Shown here piece after piece: positions 11,468 to 62,951 of a stretch of DNA of 64,000 bases. Position 1 is the stretch's first letter, and every line of letters starts with the position of its first letter. Under the pieces are notes generated by a model. It was not told the DNA's origin. It saw nothing but the letters and a program-made list of their open reading frames with translations, and made no database searches. The DNA is taken from positions 868,001 to 932,000 of the forward strand of contig NZ_CP048795.1 of assembly GCF_011006175.1 (NCBI RefSeq), given 5' to 3'. The DNA comes from Hydrogenobacter sp. T-8 (GTDB lineage Bacteria; Aquificota; Aquificia; Aquificales; Aquificaceae). The position numbers and the translations under genes are program-made.

Positions 11468-11520
11468 TAATGGTAATTTGTTGCTTGAATTGTTTCACAC
11501 ACAAACTCACAAACAAAAGC

Positions 11521-11526
11521 TATAAT
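11521..11526 (+). promoter_or_regulatory. Putative -10 box of tnpB
   Basis: TATAAT lies 6 bases before the tnpB ATG, the same spacing seen before several host genes in this window. No Shine-Dalgarno sequence is visible. Confidence 0.4.
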
Positions 11527-11532
11527 ATCCCT

Positions 11533-13014
11533 ATGTATAGGGCTATTGAAGTCTCTTGCCCTACCACAAAAAGAAAAAGCACCCTTATAGCTCATGTCCT
11601 AAAGCTATACAGAAAAACCGCTGAAATAATAGCAAACTTCCAGTGGTCTCTTTTCTTCAAAAATGGCTCTTTTAACAGAAAAGCTAATATAAAACACTTA
11701 AACTGCCCACTTTCAGAAAGGTTCAAGTCCACTATCCAATACCATGTGGTAGTCCCTACACTGGAAAGTTTTATTGCCAATGTCCAAGAAAGGTTCAAAG
11801 AGATAGTCCTTAGCTCTACTCTTCCTGAAAAGACAAAAAGAGTTCTCCTTTATATCAACTCCAGAGAGGAATGGCTTATTCCAAAAAGTGAGAAAGCCCT
11901 GTGGATAGATAAAGACAAAAACAAGCACGAGTATGAGATAGTCAAAGAAGAAAGAATGCTTGCTAAAAAGATATTCAAGCATATTCTCAAAAGCTGGAAA
12001 AAGCCAAGTTTTAGAGGTGTTTCTATGCTTTTAGACAGCAAGTGTGCCTTGCTGGAAAGACCAAAGAAAGCAAAAGGCTTTGACTTCTGGATAAGACTGT
12101 CAACTCATGAAAAGAGAAAGCCTATATATCTGCCTGTGAAACTTCATGAATACTTTGAGGAAAGAGGTGGAAAGCTAACAAGCATGGTTCAGATAGCAGA
12201 GGATGGCAAACTAAGGCTTGTGAAGGAGATAGAGAGGAAGGAGATAACTCTCAGTGGAGAGGTAGCTCTTGACTTTGGCATGGAGTGTTTTCTTGTTTCA
12301 GACAGAGGAGACCTCTTTGGCAGGAAGTTTTACAGCAAGGTCAGAGAGTATGCGGATAAGATAGACAGAATTCAAAGGGAGATGCAAAGGAGAGGAAAAA
12401 AGCCAACAGAGAGCAAGAGGTATTTAAGACTTCAACACAGGCTAAGTGAGTATGTGAAGAACGAGGTAAGGAGGGTAATAAACAGGGTTATAGAGCTATA
12501 CAGACCACGAAGGCTTGTGCTTGAGGACTTGAGAGGATTTCTGCAAAGGGTAATAAACAACTTCCCAAAATCAGTAAAGCGAGTGCTTATAAGGTTTGGG
12601 CTTGGGGAGATAAAGAAGAAGTTAGAGGAAGTGAGAGAGGAATATGGCATAGAGGTCGTGTATGTAAATCCTGCCTATAGTTCACAAGCATGCAGTAATT
12701 GTGGGTATGTAGACAAAGAGAATAGGAAGACAAGGAGTGAGTTTGAGTGTGAGCTATGCGATAAAAAGCTCCATGCGGATGTGAATGCAAGCAGGAATCT
12801 ACTTAGCCGTGCTAAGTGGAGCTTGCATTTACGCAGGATGGAGCAAGCCCTTATCAAGCAGGTAGAGGAGTTTATGGCTCGCCTGTTTGATGAGCGGTTT
12901 AAGTGTCTTTGGAGTAAGGCACTGGGATTGATTGAAAGAAATCCATACTTTCAGTCAGTCCCTAAACCCGAGGTGTGGATAAATGTCCCTAAAAGGGATA
13001 TTTGTCTAGGCTAA
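11533..13014 (+). CDS. tnpB: TnpB, RNA-guided nuclease of an IS200/IS605-family element
   Basis: TnpB (OrfB) proteins are omega/reRNA-guided DNA nucleases of IS200/IS605 transposons and ancestors of Cas12. The 493-residue protein has a complete RuvC triad, D247 (ALDFG), E331 (LEDLRG) and D416 (HADVNASRN), and the target-nucleic-acid-binding zinc finger C387/C390 and C406/C409. It should therefore be catalytically intact. It is longer than the roughly 400-residue typical form, with about 60 residues after the RuvC-III motif that coincide with strong RNA hairpins in the DNA. No TnpA transposase is present, so it is a solitary IS1341-type unit between comEC and murF. The ATG at 11533 was preferred because it follows a TATAAT box. 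Confidence 0.93.
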   Translation: MYRAIEVSCPTTKRKSTLIAHVLKLYRKTAEIIANFQWSLFFKNGSFNRKANIKHLNCPLSERFKSTIQYHVVVPTLESFIANVQERFKEIVLSSTLPEKTKRVLLYINSREEWLIPKSEKALWIDKDKNKHEYEIVKEERMLAKKIFKHILKSWKKPSFRGVSMLLDSKCALLERPKKAKGFDFWIRLSTHEKRKPIYLPVKLHEYFEERGGKLTSMVQIAEDGKLRLVKEIERKEITLSGEVALDFGMECFLVSDRGDLFGRKFYSKVREYADKIDRIQREMQRRGKKPTESKRYLRLQHRLSEYVKNEVRRVINRVIELYRPRRLVLEDLRGFLQRVINNFPKSVKRVLIRFGLGEIKKKLEEVREEYGIEVVYVNPAYSSQACSNCGYVDKENRKTRSEFECELCDKKLHADVNASRNLLSRAKWSLHLRRMEQALIKQVEEFMARLFDERFKCLWSKALGLIERNPYFQSVPKPEVWINVPKRDICLG

Positions 13015-29126: not shown

Positions 29127-29357
29127 ATGTACTATGTGGCTGAGGTCATAAACGAAGAGTGCAGTAAGTACAACTGCAAGCAGTGCACCCTCTTTTGTCC
29201 TGAGCCCAACACCCTTATGTATACTGATGAGGAGCATCATGCCTTCGTGGTGCAAGAACGGTGCAAGGGCTGTGCCTTGTGTGTCTATGTCTGCGTAAAT
29301 CTCTTAAAGAGAAACGCCATCCACATGGTCATGCCGGAAGTGCATGCGGAGAAGTAA
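29127..29357 (+). CDS. Ferredoxin-like small subunit of 2-oxoacid:ferredoxin oxidoreductase
   Basis: This 76-residue protein has two cysteine clusters suited to two [4Fe-4S] centres: CSKYNCKQCTLFCPEP and CKGCALCVYVC. It corresponds to the small iron-sulfur (delta/epsilon-type) subunit of the five-subunit Aquificales pyruvate or 2-oxoglutarate oxidoreductases, which pass electrons between TPP-bound intermediate and ferredoxin in the reductive TCA cycle. It opens the operon, and a Uma2 gene follows after 3 bases. Whether it should be named D or E depends on the subunit scheme, so no symbol is given. Confidence 0.82.
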   Translation: MYYVAEVINEECSKYNCKQCTLFCPEPNTLMYTDEEHHAFVVQERCKGCALCVYVCVNLLKRNAIHMVMPEVHAEK

Positions 29358-29360
29358 GGC

Positions 29361-29903
29361 ATGGCAGTAAGGGAAAAGCTCTGGACTTATGAGGATTATT
29401 TCCAGCTTGAGGATGAAAAAAGGTATGAGATAATTGACGGAGAGCTCCTTGAAATGCCAGCACCAAGCCTAAGGCATCAGAAGGTTATTTGGAATCTTGC
29501 CTATGTCTTTAGAAGATATCAAGAGAAAAAAAAACGCGGAGATTTCTATCTTGCTCCAGTGGATGTGGTTCTTTCTCAAGAGCATGTGGTTCAGCCAGAC
29601 CTTGTCTTTGTCTCAAAGGATAGGCTTTCTATAGCAAGGGATAAAGGTATATTTGGTGCTCCAGACCTCGTAGTGGAAGTGGTCTCTCCATCTACCTTTA
29701 AAAGGGATACAGAGGACAAGAGAAGGCTATACGCCAAGCATGGCATAAAGGAGTATTGGCTTGTGTTTCCAGAGGAGAGGGTGGTGGAAGTACTTACCTT
29801 GAAGGGAGATGAGTATGAAGTATTCTCCCACGCCTTTGAAAGCGGAAAGGTTTGTTCAAAACTTCTTGAAGATTTTTGTCTAAATTTAGAAGAAATTTTT
29901 TAA
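29361..29903 (+). CDS. Uma2/DUF820-family nuclease-fold protein (copy 1)
   Basis: This 180-residue protein has the Uma2 family layout: N-terminal WTYEDYFQLEDEKRYEIIDG, then EMPAPSLRHQ, then the PD-(D/E)XK core. The core has D80 (QPD), P101-D102 and E106 (PDLVVEVVSPS), K120 and YAKHGIKEYWLV. Members are abundant in cyanobacteria and Aquificales; their natural target is unknown and the restriction-like fold is the only guide. It lies between two oxidoreductase subunit genes with 3- and 11-base junctions on the same strand, so it must be cotranscribed with them. Confidence 0.88.
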   Translation: MAVREKLWTYEDYFQLEDEKRYEIIDGELLEMPAPSLRHQKVIWNLAYVFRRYQEKKKRGDFYLAPVDVVLSQEHVVQPDLVFVSKDRLSIARDKGIFGAPDLVVEVVSPSTFKRDTEDKRRLYAKHGIKEYWLVFPEERVVEVLTLKGDEYEVFSHAFESGKVCSKLLEDFCLNLEEIF

Positions 29904-29914
29904 GGAGGTAAACT

Positions 29915-30484
29915 ATGGCAATACTTGGACCGTCAGGCTTTTCACCCTATCCTGTGGCTGTTTATGAGGGTATTTTGAATCCTCCACCGGGCAAGGCTCT
30001 AATGTTTAACGAGATCGTAGAAGAAGAGCTTGCTATGAGAGAAGCTGCGAAGGCAATGCTCACAAGACCTAACCCCACCATATTCCCAGGTCCTCAGGTT
30101 CTTTATGCTTGGAACGAGGAGGCAAAGGAAAAGGCAAGGTTAGTAAAGAAGATGGCACAGGTTCTTGGTGCAAAGATTATTCCCATGTATGACTACAGAC
30201 CTAAATATCCCAAAATAAACCCAGCGGTGGAAATAAACCCTAACCATCCAAACCTTACCATATGGCACAACAAGATAAAGGCGTGCATATTCGTAGGCGT
30301 GCATTGCCACTATGCCAATGTAGCTCTCAAGATAATAAGGGCTGAAACGGACTGCTTTACCATAGCCATGTGCGGTATGGCAGGGCATGAAGATGCTATG
30401 ATAACACTCAGAGACCAGCATATAGAAGAGATGGAAAAGTTCATAAATATCGCAGAGGAGGTAAAGAGGGAGCTAGGAAAATGA
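29915..30484 (+). CDS. Oxidoreductase accessory subunit (CO dehydrogenase beta subunit-like family)
   Basis: This 189-residue protein belongs to the family annotated as 'CO dehydrogenase beta subunit-like' that accompanies Aquificales 2-oxoacid oxidoreductases. It starts MAILGPSGFSPYPVAVYEGI and contains VGVHCHYANVALKIIRAETD and IAMCGMAGHEDAMITLRDQH. Its only cysteines are in VHCHYA, DCFTIA, AMCGM and IKACIF, too dispersed for a ferredoxin. Its fixed place in the operon supports a role as a fifth subunit, not catalysis of CO chemistry. A strong AAGGAGG precedes the ATG. It is coupled to the next Uma2 gene by 4 bases. Confidence 0.75.
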   Translation: MAILGPSGFSPYPVAVYEGILNPPPGKALMFNEIVEEELAMREAAKAMLTRPNPTIFPGPQVLYAWNEEAKEKARLVKKMAQVLGAKIIPMYDYRPKYPKINPAVEINPNHPNLTIWHNKIKACIFVGVHCHYANVALKIIRAETDCFTIAMCGMAGHEDAMITLRDQHIEEMEKFINIAEEVKRELGK

Positions 30485-31023
30485 AAACCCGGGAAAGGCT
30501 TTGGACTTATGAGGACTACCTAAGCCTTGAGGAAGAAAAGAGGTATGAGATAATCAATGGAGAGCTTTTTGAAATGCCAGCACCCAGTGTTAGACATCAG
30601 GAAATTCTAAAAAGGCTTGTGAGGCTCTTTCAGATAGTAGAGGATAAAAAGCTGGGGCTTTACTATTTCTCACCAATAGACGTGGTGCTTTCAGAGAAGG
30701 ACGTTCTCCAGCCAGACCTTGTGGTAGTGCTTAAGGAGAATTTGTCCATAGTTCAAGAGAGGGGCATCTTTGGCGTTCCAGACCTTGTGGTGGAAATTGT
30801 CTCTGCCAGCTCCTACAAAAGGGACACAGAGGACAAAAAAAGGCTATATGCAAACTATGGTGTAAAGGAATACTGGCTTGTGCTTCCAGAGCTAAGGCTC
30901 ATTGAAGTGCTTACCCTTCAAGAGGGTGAATACAGAGCTTTTTCCTTTGCCTGTGAAAGGGGCAAGGTGTGTTCAAAGGTGGTTGAGGGTTTGTGTGTGG
31001 AGTTGGAAGGAGTGCTACCATGA
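30481..31023 (+). CDS. Uma2/DUF820-family nuclease-fold protein (copy 2)
   Basis: This 180-residue Uma2 protein has the core motifs D79 (QPD), PDLVVEIVSASS and GVKEYWLV. It starts inside the stop of the preceding subunit gene (ATGA). Residues 66-166 are identical to copy 3, while residues about 41-64 differ strongly. Part of residues 1-40 is also closely similar to copy 3. The gene is intact, which argues against recent decay. Confidence 0.88.
   Translation: MKTRERLWTYEDYLSLEEEKRYEIINGELFEMPAPSVRHQEILKRLVRLFQIVEDKKLGLYYFSPIDVVLSEKDVLQPDLVVVLKENLSIVQERGIFGVPDLVVEIVSASSYKRDTEDKKRLYANYGVKEYWLVLPELRLIEVLTLQEGEYRAFSFACERGKVCSKVVEGLCVELEGVLP
30676..30978 (+). repeat. 303-base direct repeat shared by Uma2 copies 2 and 3 (first copy)
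   Basis: This stretch, codons 66-166 of copy 2, repeats at 31215-31517 in copy 3 at the same codon positions. I count ten base differences, all in silent positions, so the encoded 101 residues are identical. The flanks diverge abruptly on both sides. Such a mosaic is best explained by duplication with later gene conversion or recombination. Confidence 0.9.
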
Positions 31024-31562
31024 TAGCAGAGAAGGTCTGGACTTATGAAGACTATCTAAGCCTTGATGAAGAAAAGAGGTATGAGATAATTGACGGGGAG
31101 CTATTTGAAATGCCAGCACCCAGCGTTAGACATCAAGAGATATCTGGTAGGTTGTATGTGAAACTTTTCAACTACATAGTGGAGAGCTCTCTTGGGATAG
31201 TCCTTTACGCTCCTATAGACGTGGTGCTTTCAGAGAAGGACGTTCTCCAGCCAGACCTTGTGGTGGTGCTTAAGGAGAATTTGTCCATAGTTCAAGAAAG
31301 AGGTATCTTTGGCGTTCCAGACCTTGTGGTGGAAATTGTCTCTGCCAGCTCCTACAAAAGGGACACAGAGGACAAAAAAAGGCTATATGCAAACTATGGT
31401 GTAAAGGAATACTGGCTTGTGCTTCCAGAGCTAAGGCTCATTGAAGTGCTTACCCTTCAAGAGGGTGAATACAGGGCTTTCTCCTTCGCCTGTGAAAGGG
31501 GCAAGGTTTGCTCAAAACTGGCTGATGGTTTGTGCATAGACCTTGAGGAGGTCTTTCGGTGA
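31020..31562 (+). CDS. Uma2/DUF820-family nuclease-fold protein (copy 3)
   Basis: This tandem paralogue of copy 2 is also 180 residues. The ATG at 31020 overlaps the copy 2 stop (ATGA); an earlier in-frame start would only add residues inside copy 2. It shares the WTYEDYLSLDEEKRYEIIDG N-terminus and an identical 101-residue core with copy 2, but has a different segment at about 40-64 (SGRLYVKLFNYIVESS) and a different last 14 residues. It ends 66 bases before porA, whose leader carries AGGAGGTAAGG. Confidence 0.88.
   Translation: MIAEKVWTYEDYLSLDEEKRYEIIDGELFEMPAPSVRHQEISGRLYVKLFNYIVESSLGIVLYAPIDVVLSEKDVLQPDLVVVLKENLSIVQERGIFGVPDLVVEIVSASSYKRDTEDKKRLYANYGVKEYWLVLPELRLIEVLTLQEGEYRAFSFACERGKVCSKLADGLCIDLEEVFR
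31215..31517 (+). repeat. 303-base direct repeat shared by Uma2 copies 2 and 3 (second copy)
   Basis: Partner of the repeat at 30676-30978, offset by exactly 539 bases, which equals the distance between the two start codons. See that entry for the comparison. Confidence 0.9.
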
Positions 31563-31628: not shown

Positions 31629-32834
31629 ATGCAGACATCTACCGAGACGGTCATATACAACAGGGCAGGACAGAGGGTGGTTTCACCTGACTACCTTCTT
31701 TTTGAAGCTCCAAGGACGAAGCATTTCATGACAGGCTCAGAGGCAGTAAAGGAGGCGGTAAAGAGGGCTTCAGTAGACGCCTCTGTGTCCTACCCAATAA
31801 CACCCCAGTCTGAGGCGGCGCACCTCATCGGTGAGCTTTGGGTTGAGGGCTATGTGGGTGTATACTTTAGAGGCGAATCTGAGTTTGGCGTTATGTCAGA
31901 AATAGCGGGATGCGCCATGGCGGGTGCAAGGACAATAACCACTACCTCTGGACCTGGAACTCTTAGGGCTTTTGAAAACTTCCCCATGTGGGCGGGGACA
32001 AGAATACCCGTCCAGCTTGTCCTTATGGCAAGAGGTGTAAACTCTCCCCTTTCTATACAACCTGACAACCTTGAGGTGGGTTTCCTGCTTGATACTGGTT
32101 GTATGATATGGTATGCGGAAAACGCACAAGACCTTTTTGATATGATACTGGCAGGCTTTGTGGTAGCAGAACAGCCAGATGTGCATGTCCCAGTTATAAC
32201 TGTGGTGGACGGCTTTTTTGTTTCTCATACACGTGAAGCAGTTATGCTCCCACCAGATGATATAGCCCTTCCACCCTACAATCCTTACAAAGCACCCATG
32301 CCTGTTATAGACGCAGAAGTGCCACCAGGAAGATTTCTCAGAGACCCATTTGTGATGAAGTCCAACTACATCTCCTATGCAACCCATGCCAGCTGGCAGT
32401 GGGAAGTGAGGTCCGCCATTGAAAGGTCAAGACCCTACGCAAAGCACTATCTCAGAGGTCTCGTAGAGGAGTTTGGAGACCCCTCCGCAGAGCTTGTCTT
32501 TGTAGCTTGTGGCACTGCGGCTGCTCAATCAAAGGAGGCGGTCAGACTTCTTGAAGAAGAGGGCATAAAGGCAAGGGTTATCAAGCTAAAAACCATAAGA
32601 CCTTTCCCCATAGAAGAGTTAAGGCAGGCAGTAAAGGGTGCTAAATACATCTTTGTGCCAGAGTTTAACGTGGTAGGATGGCTTGAAAGAGAGGTAAGAA
32701 GATATCTTTACGGACACTCTGACGCAGAGGTTATAGGTGCACCAAGGGTAGCCGGTGGAATGACCATGCCCGCGGAGGTTATAGTCAAAGAAGTTCTTAA
32801 ACTTACAGGAAAGGAGGTAAAACATGTCATATAA
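31629..32834 (+). CDS. porA: 2-oxoacid:ferredoxin oxidoreductase alpha subunit
   Basis: The alpha subunit contributes the TPP-pyrimidine-side domain I and domain II. The 401-residue protein begins its core with HFMTGSEAVKEAVKRASVD, then SYPITPQSEAAHLIGELW and TTSGPGTLRAFENFPMWAG, all typical of pyruvate or 2-oxoglutarate oxidoreductase alpha chains. A C-terminal transketolase-C-like domain is seen around VFVACGTAAAQSKEAVRLLE. Order small FeS - accessory - A - B - G resembles the por operon of Hydrogenobacter (porEDABG) more than for (forDABGE), so pyruvate is the likelier substrate. That assignment is inference. Confidence 0.88.
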   Translation: MQTSTETVIYNRAGQRVVSPDYLLFEAPRTKHFMTGSEAVKEAVKRASVDASVSYPITPQSEAAHLIGELWVEGYVGVYFRGESEFGVMSEIAGCAMAGARTITTTSGPGTLRAFENFPMWAGTRIPVQLVLMARGVNSPLSIQPDNLEVGFLLDTGCMIWYAENAQDLFDMILAGFVVAEQPDVHVPVITVVDGFFVSHTREAVMLPPDDIALPPYNPYKAPMPVIDAEVPPGRFLRDPFVMKSNYISYATHASWQWEVRSAIERSRPYAKHYLRGLVEEFGDPSAELVFVACGTAAAQSKEAVRLLEEEGIKARVIKLKTIRPFPIEELRQAVKGAKYIFVPEFNVVGWLEREVRRYLYGHSDAEVIGAPRVAGGMTMPAEVIVKEVLKLTGKEVKHVI

Positions 32835-33684
32835 GATTTACGAAATAAACGAAGAGTTTTTGGATGTTATGCCTCAGGAAATAAAAGACCTTCAGTTTAA
32901 GGCTACCTGGGGCAACCCCAAGAGGGGTGTTATGGACCTTCCTTATTCAAAGGAGTTAATAGAGGAGCATTCTCTGTGTGCGGGATGCCCTGAGTCCATG
33001 GCTCTCAGGTATATCCTCGCCTCTTTGCCAAACCCCGAGGACACCATAATAGTCAACTCTACAGGATGCACCTCTTTGGTCTTCCCCCACATAGCCCTTC
33101 ATACGGTCCACTCCCTCTTTGGAAACCAGAATGCGGTAGCCTCTGGCATAAAGAGAGTGCTTGAGTGGAGGTTTCCCGACAAGGTCAAGGATGTGGTAGT
33201 GCTTGCTGGAGATGGTGCCACAGTGGACATAGGTCTTGACTGCACCCTTCAGTCCTTCTTTAGGCAAGAGAAGATAACCACCATATGCTTTGACAACGAG
33301 GTCTATGCCAACACAGGCGGTCAAGAGAGCGGTTTGACGGTAAAAGGTCATGTCTTTAAGATGGCACCAAAGGGCAAGCAGTGGGACAAAGTCCCCATGT
33401 GGCAACTTGCCATAGACTCAGGATGCCACTATGTGGCAAGGCTTACCGTGTCCTCTCCCAAAAGGGTAGAAACGGTCATAAAGAAAGCCATATACGTGGC
33501 AAGAGAAGTAGGACCCACATATGTGCATCTTTATACTCCTTGTATTCTTGAAATAGGTCTCAACTCTGATGACGGTCTTGATGAGATGAGGCAAAGGGAC
33601 AAGGAAAGGTTTGCCTTCTTTGAGTATGTTTCTGAACCTGCAAAAGAGGTCATTGAACGCAAGAAAGAGGAGGGCTTGCTATGA
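32824..33684 (+). CDS. porB: 2-oxoacid:ferredoxin oxidoreductase beta subunit
   Basis: The beta subunit binds TPP pyrophosphate and the proximal iron-sulfur cluster. The 286-residue protein has CAGCPESMALRY, a cluster motif, NSTGCTS, and the TPP/Mg motif GDGATVDIGLD. FDNEVYANTGGQESGLT follows, with a later cysteine in YTPCILEIG. Together these give the cysteines expected of a [4Fe-4S] beta subunit. It overlaps porA by 11 bases and porG by 4. Confidence 0.92.
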   Translation: MSYKIYEINEEFLDVMPQEIKDLQFKATWGNPKRGVMDLPYSKELIEEHSLCAGCPESMALRYILASLPNPEDTIIVNSTGCTSLVFPHIALHTVHSLFGNQNAVASGIKRVLEWRFPDKVKDVVVLAGDGATVDIGLDCTLQSFFRQEKITTICFDNEVYANTGGQESGLTVKGHVFKMAPKGKQWDKVPMWQLAIDSGCHYVARLTVSSPKRVETVIKKAIYVAREVGPTYVHLYTPCILEIGLNSDDGLDEMRQRDKERFAFFEYVSEPAKEVIERKKEEGLL

Positions 33685-34394
33685 TGAGGAGAAGGGTAAA
33701 CATTCGTATGCCAGCCCTTGGAGGTCAAGGTGCAGTTACCGCTGCACACATAATAGCCACAGCGGCGGACTACGAGGGCTACTATGCGGTTTCTAACCCC
33801 TTCTTTGGTGCGGAAAAGAGGATGGCACCAGCGGAGAGCTATGCACGCATAGGAATGGAGCCCATCTACGACAGAGGCGAAGTGGTCTATCCGGATGTTA
33901 TCATGGTCTTTCACCCTCAAGTCATCACCATGGGTAAATCCTACACCATGCCCTTCTACTCTGGCATAAAGAGAAAAGGTCTTATCATCATAAACACAGA
34001 GGAAGACCTACTTACCGACGAGGACAAAGAAAGACTTGAAGAGCTTGAGGTAAAAGTATTTAACTTCCCAGCTACCAAGTTTGCTATAGACATAGCAGGC
34101 ACAGAGCTTTCCACCAATATGGCTATGATAGGTGCCCTCTTTGGTGCTATAGGCGCGGTTGGCGTTGAGGCTATAGAAGAGGGTATAAAGTCAAGGTTTC
34201 TCAAGAAATTTGTAGCCTCTGGTGGAACTGCTTCTTTGGACTCTGCTCTTGAGAGGAAGTTCAAGAAAAAGCTAGAGCTAATAGAGAAAAACCTCAACAC
34301 CGCAAAGGCTGCATATGAGCTTGCTCAAAGGTGGGCACAAGAGCAGGGGCTTGAGCCTTTCCTTCCTCCCCCACCCAAAAAGGTAGCAGTGTAA
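33681..34394 (+). CDS. porG: 2-oxoacid:ferredoxin oxidoreductase gamma subunit
   Basis: The gamma subunit (237 residues) completes the ABG catalytic core. It begins NIRMPALGGQGAVTAAHIIA, the standard gamma-chain Rossmann-like start. It continues FFGAEKRMAPAESYARIG, which contacts CoA/TPP, and then STNMAMIGALFGAIG. The C-terminus is a helical extension ending in PPPPKK. It is the last gene of the operon and is followed 6 bases later by a GC hairpin. Confidence 0.92.
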   Translation: MMRRRVNIRMPALGGQGAVTAAHIIATAADYEGYYAVSNPFFGAEKRMAPAESYARIGMEPIYDRGEVVYPDVIMVFHPQVITMGKSYTMPFYSGIKRKGLIIINTEEDLLTDEDKERLEELEVKVFNFPATKFAIDIAGTELSTNMAMIGALFGAIGAVGVEAIEEGIKSRFLKKFVASGGTASLDSALERKFKKKLELIEKNLNTAKAAYELAQRWAQEQGLEPFLPPPPKKVAV

Positions 34395-56551: not shown

Positions 56552-57535
56552 ATGGAGTTTCCAAAGCTAAGACCAAGAAGACTAAGAAGGAACGAAAATA
56601 TACGCAGGCTTGTGAGAGAGACCAAGCTAACCCTTGACGACCTTATATACCCCATCTTTGTGCGATATGGTCAAGGCATTGTGGAAGAAGTCCCAAGCAT
56701 GCCCGGGGTTTATCGCTACAGCCTTGACAAGGTAGTGGATGCAGTAAAAGAGGTAAGAGACCTTGGTATACCTGCCATAATACTCTTTGGCATACCAGAG
56801 CACAAGGATGAAGTAGGCTCAGACACTTGGAGTGATGAGGGCATTATACAAAGGGCTCTAAGGCTCATAAAGAAGGAAGTGCCAGATATGTATCTTATAA
56901 CGGATGTATGCTTTTGTGAGTATACAACGCACGGGCACTGTGGGGTGCTGTGTGATGGAGATGTTCACAACGACCTGACCCTTGAAAACCTCAAAAAGCA
57001 GGCTATATCGCATGCCAAAAATGGTGCGGACATGCTTGCACCCTCTGGCATGATGGATGGGATGGTAAAGGCTATAAGGGAGGCTTTAGACTCTTCTGGC
57101 TTTGAAAACATTCCCATAATGGCATATTCTGCTAAGTATGCCTCTGCCTTTTATGGACCCTTTAGAGAAATAGCTGAATCCGCACCAGCCTTTGGCGACA
57201 GAAGAAGCTACCAGATGGACCCAGCAAACTCAAGAGAAGCTATTAAAGAGATACTCTTGGATGTGCAAGAGGGTGCGGACATTGTGATGGTAAAACCTGC
57301 ACTTGCATACCTTGACATAATATCAAAGGTAAAAGAGCTTACACTTTTGCCCGTGTGTGCTTACAACGTGAGCGGTGAATATGCCATGATAAAGGCAGGT
57401 GGTAGGCTTGGCTGGATAGATGAAAAGAGGGTGATGATAGAAACCTTGCTTTCCATAAAGCGTGCGGGTGCGGACATGATAATCACCTACTTTGCCAGGG
57501 ATGTGGCAAGGCTCATAAACAGTGGAGAAGTTTGA
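56552..57535 (+). CDS. hemB: Porphobilinogen synthase
   Basis: HemB condenses two 5-aminolevulinate molecules to porphobilinogen. The 327-residue protein has the metal-binding [20 protein letters not shown] (a CxC...C site typical of the zinc-type). The Schiff-base lysines are in [15 protein letters not shown] and [13 protein letters not shown], and the magnesium-associated region is near RSYQMDPAN. The first codons start [19 protein letters not shown]. The Uma2 gene at 57535 starts inside its stop codon. Confidence 0.96.
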
Positions 57536-58053
57536 TGGGCTTGGTTGAAAGGTATCCAGTAAGATACACAGTGGAGGACTGGAAACATTGGCAGGGAGAC
57601 TGGGAGCTGGTGGAAGGAGTTCCCTACGCCATGGCCTCGCCAAGACCCATAAACCAAAGGCTTTTAATCTTAGTGGCCTTGCTTTTAGAGGGAATACTCA
57701 GAGATAGATGTCCAGATTGTATGGTTTGCGCAGAGCTTGATTGGTATATTTCTTATGACACAGTTATAAGACCAGACCTTATGGTGCTTTGTGGAGAAAT
57801 TCCAGAAAGGGTAGAAAGCCCACCGCAGATGGTTGTAGAAATAGTTTCGCCTTACAGCAGGCAGATGGATGAGGGGCTAAAGTTTGAGCTGTGTGAAAGA
57901 GAAGGTGTGAAATACTTTGTGCTTGTGTATCCAGAAGAGAAAAGAGTGAAGGTCTTTGAGCTCGCTAAAGGTAAATACAGGGAGAAAAGGGACAGAGGCT
58001 TCAGCTTTGGAGAATGTAAGGTAGAAATAAAGCTTGAGGAGGCTTTGATATGA
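57535..58053 (+). CDS. Uma2/DUF820-family nuclease-fold protein (copy 4)
   Basis: This 172-residue Uma2 protein is more distant from copies 1-3. It has YTVEDWKHWQGDWELVEGVP, AMASPRPINQR, the core aspartate in VIRPDLMVL, and PQMVVEIVSPYSRQMDEGLK with VKYFVLVYPEEKRVKV. Its ATG overlaps the hemB stop, and the 109-residue hypothetical overlaps its end by 4 bases. A haem gene fronting a Uma2 gene repeats the pattern of Uma2 in a metabolic operon. Confidence 0.85.
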   Translation: MGLVERYPVRYTVEDWKHWQGDWELVEGVPYAMASPRPINQRLLILVALLLEGILRDRCPDCMVCAELDWYISYDTVIRPDLMVLCGEIPERVESPPQMVVEIVSPYSRQMDEGLKFELCEREGVKYFVLVYPEEKRVKVFELAKGKYREKRDRGFSFGECKVEIKLEEALI

Positions 58054-58379: not shown

Positions 58380-59290
58380 TGGTATATTTCCTCAAGTATC
58401 TCTTTGCCACCCTCTTCTAAGAGCCTCCTGGCAAGTTTTTTGCCTACTTGCTCCGCTTGATGGAGGTCTCCTTCTTCTATTCCCTCTAAAAACTTCCTTC
58501 CTTCAAGGTCGGAAATAAAGGCTTTTAGCTTTAATTTCTCGCTCTCAATCCATGCATAGGCACCTATGGGCACTTGGCAACCACCTTGAAGTTCTCTCAG
58601 AAAAGCTCTTTCACACTCCGCCCTAATACGACTTTCTCTATGGTCAAGAAAGGCTATAGCCTCATACACCCTCTGGTCTTCTTGTCTTATCTCTATGGCG
58701 AGACTTCCTTGACCCACTGCAGGAATAAAGTCTTCCAAGACCTCGCTTACCCTTTCCTCAAAGCCCATTCTCTTAACACCTGCGTAAGCAAGCACTATGG
58801 CGTCATAAAGTCCTTCCTCCAGTTTTCTGAGCCTCGTGTCCACATTTCCGCGAAGGGGCTCTACCCTCAAGTCTGGTCTTTTTCTCTTTATCTGAACCTG
58901 TCTCCTCAAAGAGGAAGTGCCTACCTTTGCACCCTCTGGAAGCTCTTGAAATCCTCTTCCATCCCTTGATATGAGCACATCAAAAGGCTCTTCCCTCTCT
59001 GTTATAGCTCCAAGAGTGAGACCCTCTGGCAGAACCATTGGCACATCCTTTAAAGAGTGAACCGCAAGGTCTATATCTCCTCTCAGAAGTGCCTCCTCTA
59101 TCTCTTTTACAAAAAGTCCTTTGCCTCCTATTTTTGCCAAAGGAGCGTCAAGGATTTTATCGCCGGTGGTAGTGATAAGCACAAGCTCCACGCTGTAGCC
59201 TCTGCCCTCAAGCCTCTCCTTTACATAGTTTGCCTGCCAAAGAGCCAACTTGCTCTTTCGTGTGCCTATGCGAAGTGTATTCTTACTCAT
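58370..59290 (-). CDS. hemC: Porphobilinogen deaminase (hydroxymethylbilane synthase)
   Basis: HemC polymerises four porphobilinogens to hydroxymethylbilane. The 306-residue protein starts [20 protein letters not shown]. It has [11 protein letters not shown] with the catalytic aspartate and [14 protein letters not shown], whose cysteine holds the dipyrromethane cofactor. The ATG at 59290 was chosen because it gives the canonical start; an extension upstream would overlap the restriction gene further. It overlaps the endonuclease by 8 bases. Confidence 0.96.
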
Positions 59291-59972
59291 CCTTGTCAAC
59301 CCTACCAAGTTTTTCTATTATCCTTCTAAACTTTTCAAAAGGCATGACTTTCTCACTTTCTTCAATCCGCTCTGTGGTTATTACGAAAGCTCCGTCCATA
59401 TCCACTTCAACGATAGCCCTACCCTTTTTTGCAAACCTTTTTCTTGAGAGGTCCTTATCTTCATCAAGTGTTATAAAAAAAACTTTTATATTTTGCGTGA
59501 GTTTTGATTGTTTCAACTTCAAAGACCAATAACCTGTTTGAGCTATTCTTTCCCTTAAGGTAGCTTTTACGGATATTATCGCTAAAGCTCTGCAATTCTT
59601 ATTGTATATAACTAAATCAGCATCTGGAACATGCATCCCAAACTCACCATAATCAACAAGTATACTCCTTTTCACCATGCATAGACACTCATCTAACACT
59701 ATACCACTTAACTTTGAACCACTTATTATATTTAAACCATGTTTTTTAACTTCAGAACTTATAACTTCCACTATCAACTCTTCAAGAAGCCTCCCTTTGA
59801 ATGCTTTCCAGCTTTGCTCTGCGTCTTTTATACCAAACTTGGTTATTTCCCCAGAGAACTCTTGCCTTATGGTTTCAAGAATATTAGAAAGGTTTTCTAT
59901 GCCCTTTAGTTTTACATCTTCTATAGCTTTCAATTTTAATGTTTCAAGGAAAAACTTTTTACTATCTTTCAT
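59283..59972 (-). CDS. Putative type II restriction endonuclease (BsaWI-like)
   Basis: This 229-residue protein has a PD-(D/E)XK core: P116-D117-A-D119, then S134-V-K136 in [17 protein letters not shown]. The 'SxK-x-TLRER' string followed by aromatic and basic residues is shared by several type II enzymes of the BsaWI type; I rely on memory for that. A conserved-looking glutamate pair (E64-E65) lies in a helix before the core. It lies directly after a methyltransferase gene with an 11-base overlap, the standard arrangement of a restriction-modification pair. The recognition site cannot be read. Confidence 0.72.
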
Positions 59973-61149
59973 AGAAATTCCACCTTATTTTCGTCCCTTT
60001 CTTTTTAACACTCTCATCTTTTCCAACTATTATGAGGTATTTAAAACCTCTTAGATAGAAGTTATGCTGTAAAGCCTTGCTATGCCAAAAGGGGGTATTT
60101 GAAGCTTGATTTCTGCGAACCACACAAACCACATCAACAGGGGAAAAATATTTTGTAAGTCTTTCGTATATCTTAAAGCCCACTGGAATATATTCCCCCT
60201 TTGCCCATTGGTCACCTATTAACCAAGCCAATACTTTGCCTTTTTTGAGTATTCTATAACATTCCTGCATTACTTTTTCAAGCTCCTCGTAAAACTCTTC
60301 AGAACTTGCAGGTATATGACCTATATTTAAGGGATGGTCGTTATATTTGATGTTGTCTCCGTATGGCGAGTCTACAAACACTAAATCCACCGTTTCATCC
60401 TTCAGAGGTATGTTTCTGGCATCCGCCTGTATTATATCTTTTCTCGTTGGCACTATATCAAAGGCTACAACCCTTCTCCTCTCTTCAAGGCACACATCTA
60501 TCGTAGTCCCAGAACCTGCCATAGGGTCGCATACTATCTCACCAGGTTCAGTGTATCTCCATATGAGGTTATAAATAATGAAGGCTGGAGTAACGCCAGG
60601 GTATTTATTATTACCCTTTTTGGTATATCCGTAACTTTGGTATGGATAGTCCCACAAGGTAGTTGTCATCATTGGGGGTATGTATTTGTCATCTACTATT
60701 TCTTCCTTGCGAAACCTATTTATTGCTCTTCCCTCAAGGATATTCTTTATCAGAAGTGCCCCCTTCTCTGTCAGTATATCTCTCCACGAGATGTTAAGAC
60801 TTCTAAAGATTGAACTTGCCTTTTCAACTTTTTTTATGGTTTGTGTTGTTTCAAAGCGTATATAGTAAGGGTATCTACCTTCAAAGATTGGAATATCTTT
60901 ATCATATCCAGGTTCGCCTTTTGCAGTAAAAGTGCCATAAAGAACATCTTTGTCAAGATTATACAGAAAAATAAAATCGCCTTCTTTAACTGCGAATAAC
61001 TTATTTGCGTAATTTTTCCCAGTCAAGATTATCCTATTAGACAATAGTGTTTCCTCGCTCTTGTCAGTGCAAGCAAAGATAAAACCATGTCTAACAAAAT
61101 GCTTTTTTACTTCACTTTTTTCTACCCCCACCGAGCTTAGGAAACCCAT
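59962..61149 (-). CDS. DNA methyltransferase with N-terminal EVE/DCD-like region
   Basis: This 395-residue protein has SAM-motif I CDPMAGSGTT (208-216) and catalytic motif IV VDSPYGDN (260-263, a DPPY variant), so it is a probable N4-cytosine or N6-adenine methylase. Residues about 15-110 resemble PUA/EVE or DCD domains, which read modified bases or RNA: FVRHGFIFACTDKSEETLLS and GDFIFLYNLDKDVLYGTFTA. The ATG at 61149 was chosen because it is the first in frame after the aspS stop; the longer reading would run into aspS. Only 5 bases separate it from aspS. Confidence 0.78.
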   Translation of the reverse strand: MGFLSSVGVEKSEVKKHFVRHGFIFACTDKSEETLLSNRIILTGKNYANKLFAVKEGDFIFLYNLDKDVLYGTFTAKGEPGYDKDIPIFEGRYPYYIRFETTQTIKKVEKASSIFRSLNISWRDILTEKGALLIKNILEGRAINRFRKEEIVDDKYIPPMMTTTLWDYPYQSYGYTKKGNNKYPGVTPAFIIYNLIWRYTEPGEIVCDPMAGSGTTIDVCLEERRRVVAFDIVPTRKDIIQADARNIPLKDETVDLVFVDSPYGDNIKYNDHPLNIGHIPASSEEFYEELEKVMQECYRILKKGKVLAWLIGDQWAKGEYIPVGFKIYERLTKYFSPVDVVCVVRRNQASNTPFWHSKALQHNFYLRGFKYLIIVGKDESVKKKGTKIRWNFYER

Positions 61150-61154
61150 TTCCT

Positions 61155-62951
61155 CTAACCTTCCACCACCCTTATATGAAGCTCCTTGAGCTGTTTTGGC
61201 TCCACATAGTCTGGTGCACCAGTGAGAGGGCATATGCCCTTTTGAGTCTTCGGAAAGGCTATCACATCCCTTATAGAGTCCAAGCCTCTCATTATGGCAA
61301 TTAGCCTGTCCAGTCCAAAGGCAAGTCCACCATGTGGTGGTGCTCCAAAGCGTAGTGCGTCAAGTAGAAAACCAAACTTCTCCCTTGCCTCCATCTCTGG
61401 TATCTCCAAAAGCTTAAAGACAAGTTCCTGAAGGTCTTTCCTATGTATACGAATAGAACCTCCTCCCACCTCGTATCCGTTTATCACAAGGTCGTAAGCC
61501 CTAGCCCTTACAGAATGAACAAGCCTCTTTTTCTCCTCCAACTCCTGCACCTGTAGAGCCCTTTCAAGAAGCGGAATATCCTCCTCTCTGGGTGAAGTGA
61601 AGGGGTGGTGCAAGGAGACAAACCTTTTCTCCTCCTCATCCCATTCCATGAGAGGAAAGCCCACCACCCAAAATATATCAAACTTGCTAGTGTCTATAAG
61701 GTTGTATTTCTTGCCTATGTGAAGCCTTAGATTTCCAAGAATACGGTAGACCACTTCCCTTTTGTCCGCGGAGAAAAATATCACATCACCTGGCTCAGCC
61801 CTTAGCTTTTGTAGAAGCTCTCTGGTCTCTTCCTCAGAGAAAAACTTTACTATTGGTGAGTTTAGTTTGTCTTCTTCTACCTTTATCCAAGCAAGACCCT
61901 TTGCTCCAAGGCTTTGCACAAACTGGGTAAGCTCATCTATCTCTTTCCTTGAGAGGTTTGAGCCTTTGAAGTTTATAGCCTTTACCACTCCACCAGATTC
62001 TATGGCTTGACGAAACACTTTAAACTCTGTATTTTTAAAGACCTGTGTGAGGTCCACAAGCTCAAGCCCAAACCTACGGTCCGGCTTGTCCGAGCCATAA
62101 GTTTCCATGGCATACTCGTAGGATATGCGGTCAAAGGGGAGCTTTAGCTCAACGCCAAGAAGCTCCTTAAAGAGGCTATATATAAGCCTTTCGCTAAAAG
62201 CCATAACATCCTCTTCTTCTACAAAGGACATTTCAAAGTCTATCTGGGTAAATTCAGGCTGACGGTCTGCGCGCAGGTCCTCGTCCCTCAAACATTTAAC
62301 TATCTGAAAATACCTATCAAAACCTGCAACCATAAGCACTTGCTTAAAGAGCTGTGGAGACTGAGGAAGGGCGTAAAACTTGCCCGGATGTAACCTTGAG
62401 GGAACAAGAAAGTCCCTTGCACCCTCTGGGGTGGACTTGGTAAGAAAGGGTGTCTCTATTTCCACAAAGCCTTCTTCAAGGAAAACCTTCCTTATTACCT
62501 GATAGGCTCTATGCCTAAAGAGAAGGTTTTCCTTCATGCTCTCCCTTCTTAGGTCCAAGTAGCGATATTTGAGTTTTGTCTCCTCCGAAAGGTGTGTCTC
62601 TTCGTCAATGGGAAAGGGTAAGGTTTCTGAGGTGTTGAGAATTTCAAGCTCTTCAATTACCACTTCGTAGTCTCCCGTCTTTAGCTTTGGGTTTTCTGTG
62701 CCCGGGGGTCTTTTCCTAACAGTGCCACGCAGGGAAACCACATACTCTGACCTGAGCCTATCCGCAAGCTCATACACCTCAGGGTTTGTTTTTTCTTCCA
62801 CCACACACTGGATTAGACCCTCTCTATCTCTGAGGTCTATAAAGATTACTCCTCCGTGGTTTCTTATGCGATGAACCCAGCCGTTTAAAATAACCTCCTT
62901 TCCGAGGTCTTGTTCGCTGATGTGTCCGCAGTATCTTGTTCTTTTTAGCAT
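61155..62951 (-). CDS. aspS: Aspartate--tRNA ligase
   Basis: Class II synthetase for tRNA-Asp. The 598-residue protein has an OB-fold anticodon domain (MLKRTRYCGHISEQDLGKEV to about 110). The bacterial-type catalytic domain has QSPQLFKQVLMVAGFDRYFQ, CLRDEDLRADRQPEFTQID and GLAFGLDRLIAIMRG. A GAD domain is inserted. In many bacteria lacking AsnRS it also charges tRNA-Asn; that cannot be settled from this window. A minus-strand TATAAT box (62963-62958) is 6 bases before the ATG. The restriction-modification genes follow it. Confidence 0.96.
   Translation of the reverse strand: MLKRTRYCGHISEQDLGKEVILNGWVHRIRNHGGVIFIDLRDREGLIQCVVEEKTNPEVYELADRLRSEYVVSLRGTVRKRPPGTENPKLKTGDYEVVIEELEILNTSETLPFPIDEETHLSEETKLKYRYLDLRRESMKENLLFRHRAYQVIRKVFLEEGFVEIETPFLTKSTPEGARDFLVPSRLHPGKFYALPQSPQLFKQVLMVAGFDRYFQIVKCLRDEDLRADRQPEFTQIDFEMSFVEEEDVMAFSERLIYSLFKELLGVELKLPFDRISYEYAMETYGSDKPDRRFGLELVDLTQVFKNTEFKVFRQAIESGGVVKAINFKGSNLSRKEIDELTQFVQSLGAKGLAWIKVEEDKLNSPIVKFFSEEETRELLQKLRAEPGDVIFFSADKREVVYRILGNLRLHIGKKYNLIDTSKFDIFWVVGFPLMEWDEEEKRFVSLHHPFTSPREEDIPLLERALQVQELEEKKRLVHSVRARAYDLVINGYEVGGGSIRIHRKDLQELVFKLLEIPEMEAREKFGFLLDALRFGAPPHGGLAFGLDRLIAIMRGLDSIRDVIAFPKTQKGICPLTGAPDYVEPKQLKELHIRVVEG

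Follow-up and report, generated by a model that had tools for sequence, protein, structure and literature searches.

A sharply bounded variable segment in tandem, operon-embedded Uma2 genes of Hydrogenobacter sp. T-8 and its possible role in recognition

Introduction

How can two adjacent genes encode an identical core of about 100 residues and still differ at most positions of the segment lying directly before it? This question is raised by two tandem genes, here named B and C, in the window, which is the whole analyzed stretch of 64,000 nucleotides of the genome of Hydrogenobacter sp. T-8 (contig NZ_CP048795.1, positions 868,001 to 932,000). Both belong to Uma2, which has been presented as a PD-(D/E)XK family rich in paralogues and proposed to be selfish (PMC551604), and also as paralogue cassettes that are possible solo toxins (PMC2701414); tandem cassettes of Uma2 paralogues are already described in these two papers. 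In what follows, the variable segment, residues 41–64, is referred to as V, residues 1–40 as N, residues 65–150 as the core, and the residues beyond the core as the tail.

Results

Genes A, B, and C in the for operon

The coordinates of B and C, of a third paralogue (A), and of their segments are given in Table 1. The three proteins match the Uma2 family (PF05685, COG4636, DUF820) with scores far above the Pfam gathering cut-off of 27 bits (116.7–124.8), and they share with it the predicted fold and the D, E, and K of the PD-EXX-K site, which in B are D79, E105, and K119. The order of the genes is ferredoxin - A - forE - B - C - forA - forB - forG, and this gene order is kept in relatives. At the forE/B and B/C junctions, 4-nt ATGA overlaps can be read in the sequence. 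The genome, which is a single contig of 1.8 Mb, has 17 Uma2 copies, and the number ranges from 0 to 27 per genome within its genus. A Uma2 gene, aq_1194, is also present in the PFOR cluster of Aquifex aeolicus, and its product was reportedly absent from the enzyme complex (PMC10052474).

There is no cognate methyltransferase beside A, B, and C, as would be expected for a type II restriction-modification system, the neighbors being subunits of the 2-oxoacid:ferredoxin oxidoreductase. Likewise, no antitoxin gene adjoins the Uma2 copies, whose neighbors are metabolic genes or further Uma2 genes, an arrangement that differs from that of a toxin-antitoxin pair. The PDC-S03 models of PADLOC (candidate phage defense) match A, B, and C, with the best E-value (1.4e-46) for C, but this is a candidate label only, and B and C are in a metabolic operon and not in a defense island.

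Table 1. Features of the for operon and its Uma2 genes, in window coordinates
Feature	Position	Strand	Length	Remarks
Ferredoxin-type subunit of the host operon	29127..29357	+		Weak Fer4 and PorD_KorD matches
Uma2 gene A, third paralogue, between ferredoxin and forE	29361..29903	+	180 aa	PF05685, 124.8 bits
V segment of A	29481..29555	+		Type shared with G001_1601672, 92% identical
forE-like subunit (CO_dh, PF02552)	29915..30484	+		196 bits; stop overlaps the start of B
Uma2 gene B, first copy after forE	30481..31023	+	180 aa	PF05685, 118.8 bits
V segment of B	30601..30672	+	codons 41–64	Alignment, column profile, and secondary structure of the model
B codons 96–151, recent conversion tract	30766..30933	+		Every base as in C
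B codons 167–180, unconverted position-specific end	30979..31020	+		42/42 with the first slot gene of G002, 25/42 with C
Uma2 gene C	31020..31562	+	180 aa	Start within the ATGA ending B; PF05685, 116.7 bits
V segment of C	31137..31211	+	25 codons after His-Gln	Type shared with the forE-forA slot genes of G001 and G002
C codons 96–151, partner of the tract in B	31305..31472	+		168/168 and synonymous run test
forA, forB, forG (2-oxoacid:ferredoxin oxidoreductase alpha, beta, gamma)	31629..34394	+		NCBIfam PorA/PorB/PorC-type matches

Identical and divergent blocks of B and C

The count in the preliminary description is exact: codons 66–166 of B and C encode the same residues with ten silent differences in 303 bases. 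When codon 65 is included, the codon alignment has 91 identical and 11 synonymous codons and no replacement, the eleventh synonymous difference being that of codon 65. Residues 41–64 are mostly different, as had been noted (3 identical codons, 6 synonymous, 15 replacements, and one 1-codon gap), and so are the final 14 residues, which have 8 replacements. The first ~7 residues, on which the preliminary description is silent, differ as well, and codons 1–40 as a whole are moderately diverged (6 replacements, 8 synonymous). The DNA identity is 58% for codons 1–12, 89% for codons 13–40, and 47% for V; it is 95% for codons 65–95, 100% (168/168) for codons 96–151, 87% for codons 152–166, and 60% for codons 167–180. 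These block identities place breakpoints near codons 12, 40, 64, and 166, in agreement with the earlier reading of recombination or gene conversion. Of the 146 degenerate codons with identical amino acids in B and C, 29 have a silent difference, and 55 consecutive codons of this kind (codons 96–151) have none (p ~1e-5 by permutation). This synonymous-only run test was used instead of a run test over all family-polymorphic sites, which is confounded by regional rate differences.

Most genomes of the genus, as well as members of four other genera, have a Uma2 gene in the forE-forA slot; in others the slot is empty. The final 14 codons of B are the same (42/42) as those of the first slot gene of the relative G002 and only 60% identical to those of C, and the first 12 codons of C are 91% identical to the second slot gene of G002, compared with 67% for the first. 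Between the two slot copies of G002 itself, codons 41–166 are identical, codons 13–40 are 96% identical, and the ends are 61% and 69% identical; V is identical in two tandem pairs of this genome, a draft of about 100 contigs, on whose assembly the identical tandem tracts rest. Since these copies are identical through V, conversion in G002 carried V, and because two tandem pairs share V, distinct V segments are not obligatory. In the genome of B and C (G000), conversion left V unlike (47%). In the other slot of G002, the second gene (G002_DE2) has the N-terminus of the second gene of G001 (36/36), but its V and core equal those of the first gene in the same slot of G002 (100%).

These patterns indicate that tandem copies donate to one another, with V being either carried or spared, and that the differing last 14 residues of B and C are unconverted ends bound to their position. 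For the origin of the B/C pair there are two routes: the core of C was copied onto B, or a B-type V entered a C-type copy. Either is recombination. The preliminary description regarded the catalytic block as the converted unit; the conversion stands, but the unit is not strictly this block, as the tract in G002 spans roughly codons 13–166, with V included. In the ferredoxin-forE slot, the differing block of the pair G001_1602218/1601672 (L050, L058) continues beyond V as far as about codon 95, and exchanged blocks that exceed V in length therefore also occur.

V is the most divergent segment in many Uma2 pairs

The sample comprises 147 Uma2 genes from the 34 Aquificaceae genomes with Uma2 among 64 searched, many of the relatives being drafts, and 136 long genes were sorted into eight backbone subfamilies (S1–S8). 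For the same-subfamily pairs within one Aquificaceae genome (n=109), the mean identity is 80% in N, 34% in V, 76% in the core, and 60% in the tail. The per-column difference rate is 0.00 at H39, rises sharply at residue 41 to values of 0.33–0.90 over residues 41–64, and drops at residue 65 (0.07 at P65, 0.01 at D67). The 24-residue window of lowest similarity is centered on V in 29 of 31 close within-genome Aquificaceae pairs. Pairs within arrays are non-independent, and one-per-array counts are given for the key figures; when each genome and subfamily contributes a single pair, the minimum falls on V in 12 of 13 (p 3e-11). An alignment artefact is ruled out as the cause of the V divergence, as the boundaries are gap-poor, the H39 and P65/D67 flanks are invariant, and independent alignments agree.

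The same profile is seen in arrays of WOR-3, Leptospiraceae, Dehalococcoidia, Caldilineaceae, and others (62 pairs), with mean identities of 0.79 in N, 0.35 in V, 0.71 in the core, and 0.66 in the tail; outside Aquificota, the window of lowest similarity coincides with V in 48 of 60 pairs. Genes 2 and 3 of a Leptospiraceae array (L163) differ at 24 of 26 codons in V versus 6 of 158 elsewhere, and in a Dehalococcoidia array (L168) these counts are 19 of 25 and 11 of 169. Two outcomes that would speak against a mosaic were named in the preliminary description, namely residues 41–64 varying no more than the rest across the family, or many unrelated paralogue pairs sharing the pattern without breakpoints. 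Neither is found, and V varies far more than the remainder of the gene in each Uma2 subfamily of the genus, as it also does in other phyla. In the synonymous run test, p < 0.01 is obtained for 19 of the 94 pairs of copies that share a genome in this genus, so conversion between Uma2 copies is common.

Separate and old genealogy of V

The median dS of 27 close pairs with unlike V is 1.75 in V versus 0.44 in N and core, a Nei-Gojobori estimate that is rough over 24 codons. The safer figure is the count at codons with identical amino acids: in V-different pairs, silent differences are found at 57% of these codons in V, where saturation is 58%, and at 20% in N, 19% in the core, and 14% in the tail. 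In 26 same-V pairs, the silent difference in V is 9%, and V is if anything more conserved than its flanks. The identity of V is nearly bimodal, being at least 0.8 in 26 close pairs (dS < 0.6) and below 0.6 in 27, with three in between. As the silent sites of V are saturated and those of the flanks are not, V is better described as an old block, with a genealogy separate from that of its flanks, than as a fast-mutating stretch, and its excess of differences points to block replacement by old alleles rather than to rapid point mutation.

The trees of V and the core differ. The V DNA tree rejects a clade of B and C (p 0.003) and joins B to the forE-forA slot gene of G011 (96/95), whereas the core tree groups B and C with the slot genes of G001 and G002 on short branches and does not reject B with C (p 0.42). 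In a second subfamily, V rejects a pair that is near in the core (p 2e-4), and the flanks reject a pair formed by V (p 0.03). The V tree has 75 columns and little signal, and in it A and G001_1601672 are not cleanly joined (p 0.07 when held together). Of 72 genes of the genus that possess a paralogue, 59 find the closest V in another genome and 5 in their own genome, with 8 ties. The dN/dS values of 21 same-V pairs across species are 0.16 for V, 0.155 for N, 0.11 for the core, and 0.22 for the tail, the pairs having been picked by a V identity of at least 0.7, a choice that lowers dN. With this caveat, the V types look to be under purifying selection. It was proposed earlier that V is free, or pressed, to diversify; V indeed varies most, but "free" does not fit a dN/dS of V types across species (~0.16) that is like that of the rest of the gene.

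The catalytic D79 and K119 are present in 136 of 136 aligned copies and E105 in 135, with an alignment gap in the remaining one, and there is therefore no sign of decay. This also rules out a catalytically dead paralogue acting as antitoxin, as every copy retains the catalytic D and K. The V segments of B and C each occur once in their own genome, with no second copy, and within the genus they are essentially confined to Uma2 genes. A silent reservoir of V cassettes, or the template of a diversity-generating retroelement, is rejected by this single-copy state. Sharing of V between backbone subfamilies is likewise rejected; the highest cross-subfamily V identity is 0.60, so the reassortment of V seems confined within subfamilies. 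Nor is V tied to the operon or insertion site, as the forE-forA slot bears several V types across species. Among 50,697 phage records, a single one carries Uma2.

Predicted structure and composition of V

The AlphaFold2 model of B, calculated with an alignment of 80 rows, has a pLDDT of 94.5 and a pTM of 0.90. In this model, V is predicted to form most of the first core helix (37–55), a turn, and the next strand (59–63). The closest solved Uma2 structures are 6okh (Z 28.4, rmsd 1.2 over 174), 9y1l (21.3), 1wdj (20.1), and 3ot2 (19.7), and the predicted fold is the PD-(D/E)XK fold of Uma2; the match with type IIG enzymes is weaker (DrdV, Z 8.6). The entropy along V follows the helical period of 100 degrees. 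Positions 42, 46, 49, and 53 stay hydrophobic, and hypervariability is seen at positions 47, 48, and 52, where hydrophobic residues are nevertheless frequent, a periodicity that would suit a variable binding face. H39, directly before V, is a proposed active-site or substrate-binding residue (PMC551604). V is net positive in five subfamilies (S1–S3, S6, and S7), although acidic character prevails in N and in most cores; V itself has a neutral or acidic character in S4, S5, and S8. The copies of these last three subfamilies have a mean of two cysteines in V and often an Asn replacing the conserved His39. An S4 gene in the window, at 57532-58053 (+) and of another subfamily than B and C, begins in the stop region of hemB.

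Discussion

B and C are members of an operon-embedded array of Uma2 PD-(D/E)XK genes whose copies recombine with one another. Conversion tracts overwrite mid-gene parts, and the first ~12 and last ~14 codons remain position-specific, as positional orthologues show. The V segments are old and fall into discrete types, which are found again in other species and nearly always differ between the copies of one genome. It is proposed, with a probability of about 0.55 for the explanation as a whole, that V serves for recognition in a predicted enzyme whose other parts are interchangeable, in line with the specificity region suggested in the preliminary description, and that different V types are retained together by selection as a repertoire. 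For the ligand of V, our guess puts a protein surface somewhat ahead, with a nucleic-acid target as a close second. Such a surface could be used for self-pairing, each copy forming its own oligomer, or could be that of an inhibitor or trigger partner. The guess is made because hydrophobic residues are frequent at the hypervariable positions 47, 48, and 52 and because several V types are combined with a single working core; against it counts that V is the most positive part of an acidic protein in several subfamilies, which suits nucleic-acid binding better. A wider and more tentative proposal is that the Uma2 arrays of many phyla are the repertoire of one nuclease, with bodies shared by gene conversion and with distinct, selected 24-residue recognition elements, as a compact multi-specificity system. 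If true, a multi-specificity recognition system would be hidden within core metabolic operons, with V reassorted by recombination.

Several other explanations of V have to be weighed. It is possible, although we consider it rather doubtful, that V sets a nucleic-acid target, so that every copy would cut or nick its own sequence or structure in DNA or RNA and the array would be the set of specificities, in the manner of the target-recognition domains of type I restriction enzymes. The conserved active site, the PD-(D/E)XK fold, the start of V directly after the proposed substrate-binding residue H39 (PMC551604), and the positive V of S1–S3, S6, and S7 next to acidic N regions and cores all agree with such a role, but the net charge of V is zero or negative in S4, S5, and S8, and B and C are without a neighboring methyltransferase that would shield the host from a sequence-specific cutter. 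That V is a weakly constrained surface helix, which diverged neutrally while conversion homogenized the rest, is improbable. Exposed helix faces do vary in many proteins, and the amphipathic pattern, with conserved buried residues 42, 46, 49, and 53, is what a constraint by the fold only would give; the dN/dS of 0.16 in same-V pairs across species, the nearly bimodal identity of V, which is not constraint-free at similar distances, and the occurrence of V as the minimum window in three or more phyla are difficult to reconcile with neutral drift.

Positive selection on point mutations, making V hypervariable with no exchange of V blocks, accounts for V having the highest replacement rate between paralogues (pN 0.48 versus 0.08 in the core). 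It hardly accounts for silent sites that are saturated in V and not in the flanks, for the conflict of the V and core trees, or for G002_DE2, which has its neighbor's V and core on its own N-terminus, and this explanation is very improbable. A selfish element, with Uma2 spreading and persisting by lodging in core operons and with V diversity averting cross-inhibition of sisters or finding new targets, is conceivable but on balance unlikely. Uma2 is proposed to be selfish (PMC551604), its copy number varies widely within one genus, and copies lie inside the for operon, two nuo operons, a DmsC-type oxidoreductase operon, and other core operons, with many 4-nt overlaps; on the other hand, the forE-forA slot, filled in five genera and empty in others, looks more like long residence and loss than like active spread, and the several V types found in this one slot imply that V does not specify the insertion site.

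Returning to V as a recognition element, known systems with some likeness to it can be named. In type I HsdS subunits, a constant body carries exchangeable, sharply bounded specificity segments, alike in outline to V. The HsdS domains are far larger and are known DNA readers, whereas V has ~24 residues inside a nuclease, and HsdS is no relative. By analogy, the nearest counterpart of the V pattern appears to be Rpn of E. coli, which is also a PD-(D/E)XK nuclease and likewise combines a conserved core with a region of high variability; Rpn is anti-phage, and its variable region is a dimerization interface (PMC10327210). Unlike in Uma2, the variable part of Rpn is a C-terminal domain that is separately translated as an antitoxin. 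The Uma2 box, residues 41–64 of 180, is not such a C-terminal domain, and V is predicted to be an internal helix and strand of the nuclease fold. Discrete V types crossing species, a conversion mosaic, or a residue 41–64 box were not found in the consulted passages of some of the open-access papers that name Uma2. Within this scope, what appears novel beyond the known Uma2 arrays is a sharply bounded, type-conserved, swappable segment in a large and little-studied family. V indicates where the specificity of Uma2 probably lies, tandem pairs sharing nearly the whole protein with unlike V are natural experiments, and a V repertoire would give a reason for genomes to retain many Uma2 copies.

Uma2 genes are also reported as accessory genes in Microcystis type III CRISPR loci (PMC11855584), and a DUF820 (Uma2) gene is reported within the hox hydrogenase operon of Synechocystis (PMC4963859). 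In the laboratory strain LL1686 of Thermoanaerobacterium saccharolyticum, 20 clustered variants at 37-45% frequency are reported in one Uma2 gene, Tsac_2318 (PMC6997586); these could be due to gene conversion from a paralogue or to mis-mapped reads.

The placement of Uma2 was described as virtually random by Feder and Bujnicki (PMC551604). By inspection, the placement in this genome looks biased to core operons. Two copies are interspersed in the order nuoCD-Uma2-nuoH-Uma2-nuoI (G000:C1:302500-304573) and another in a second nuoD-Uma2-nuoH (1632600-1633136) (L016, L017, L009), with several 4-nt overlaps. Three copies are upstream of an iron-sulfur/DmsC-type oxidoreductase pair, and more are found after serA (two), before argG (two), after hemB (one), and after purH (one). 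Elsewhere in the window, a 514-aa ORF at 11470-13014 (+) is by eye TnpB/IS605 OrfB-like, with zinc-finger-like C-x-x-C motifs near its end. At 59283-61233 (-), two overlapping ORFs, by eye a DNA methyltransferase (59962-61233) and a possible restriction nuclease (59283-59972), look like a candidate restriction-modification pair.
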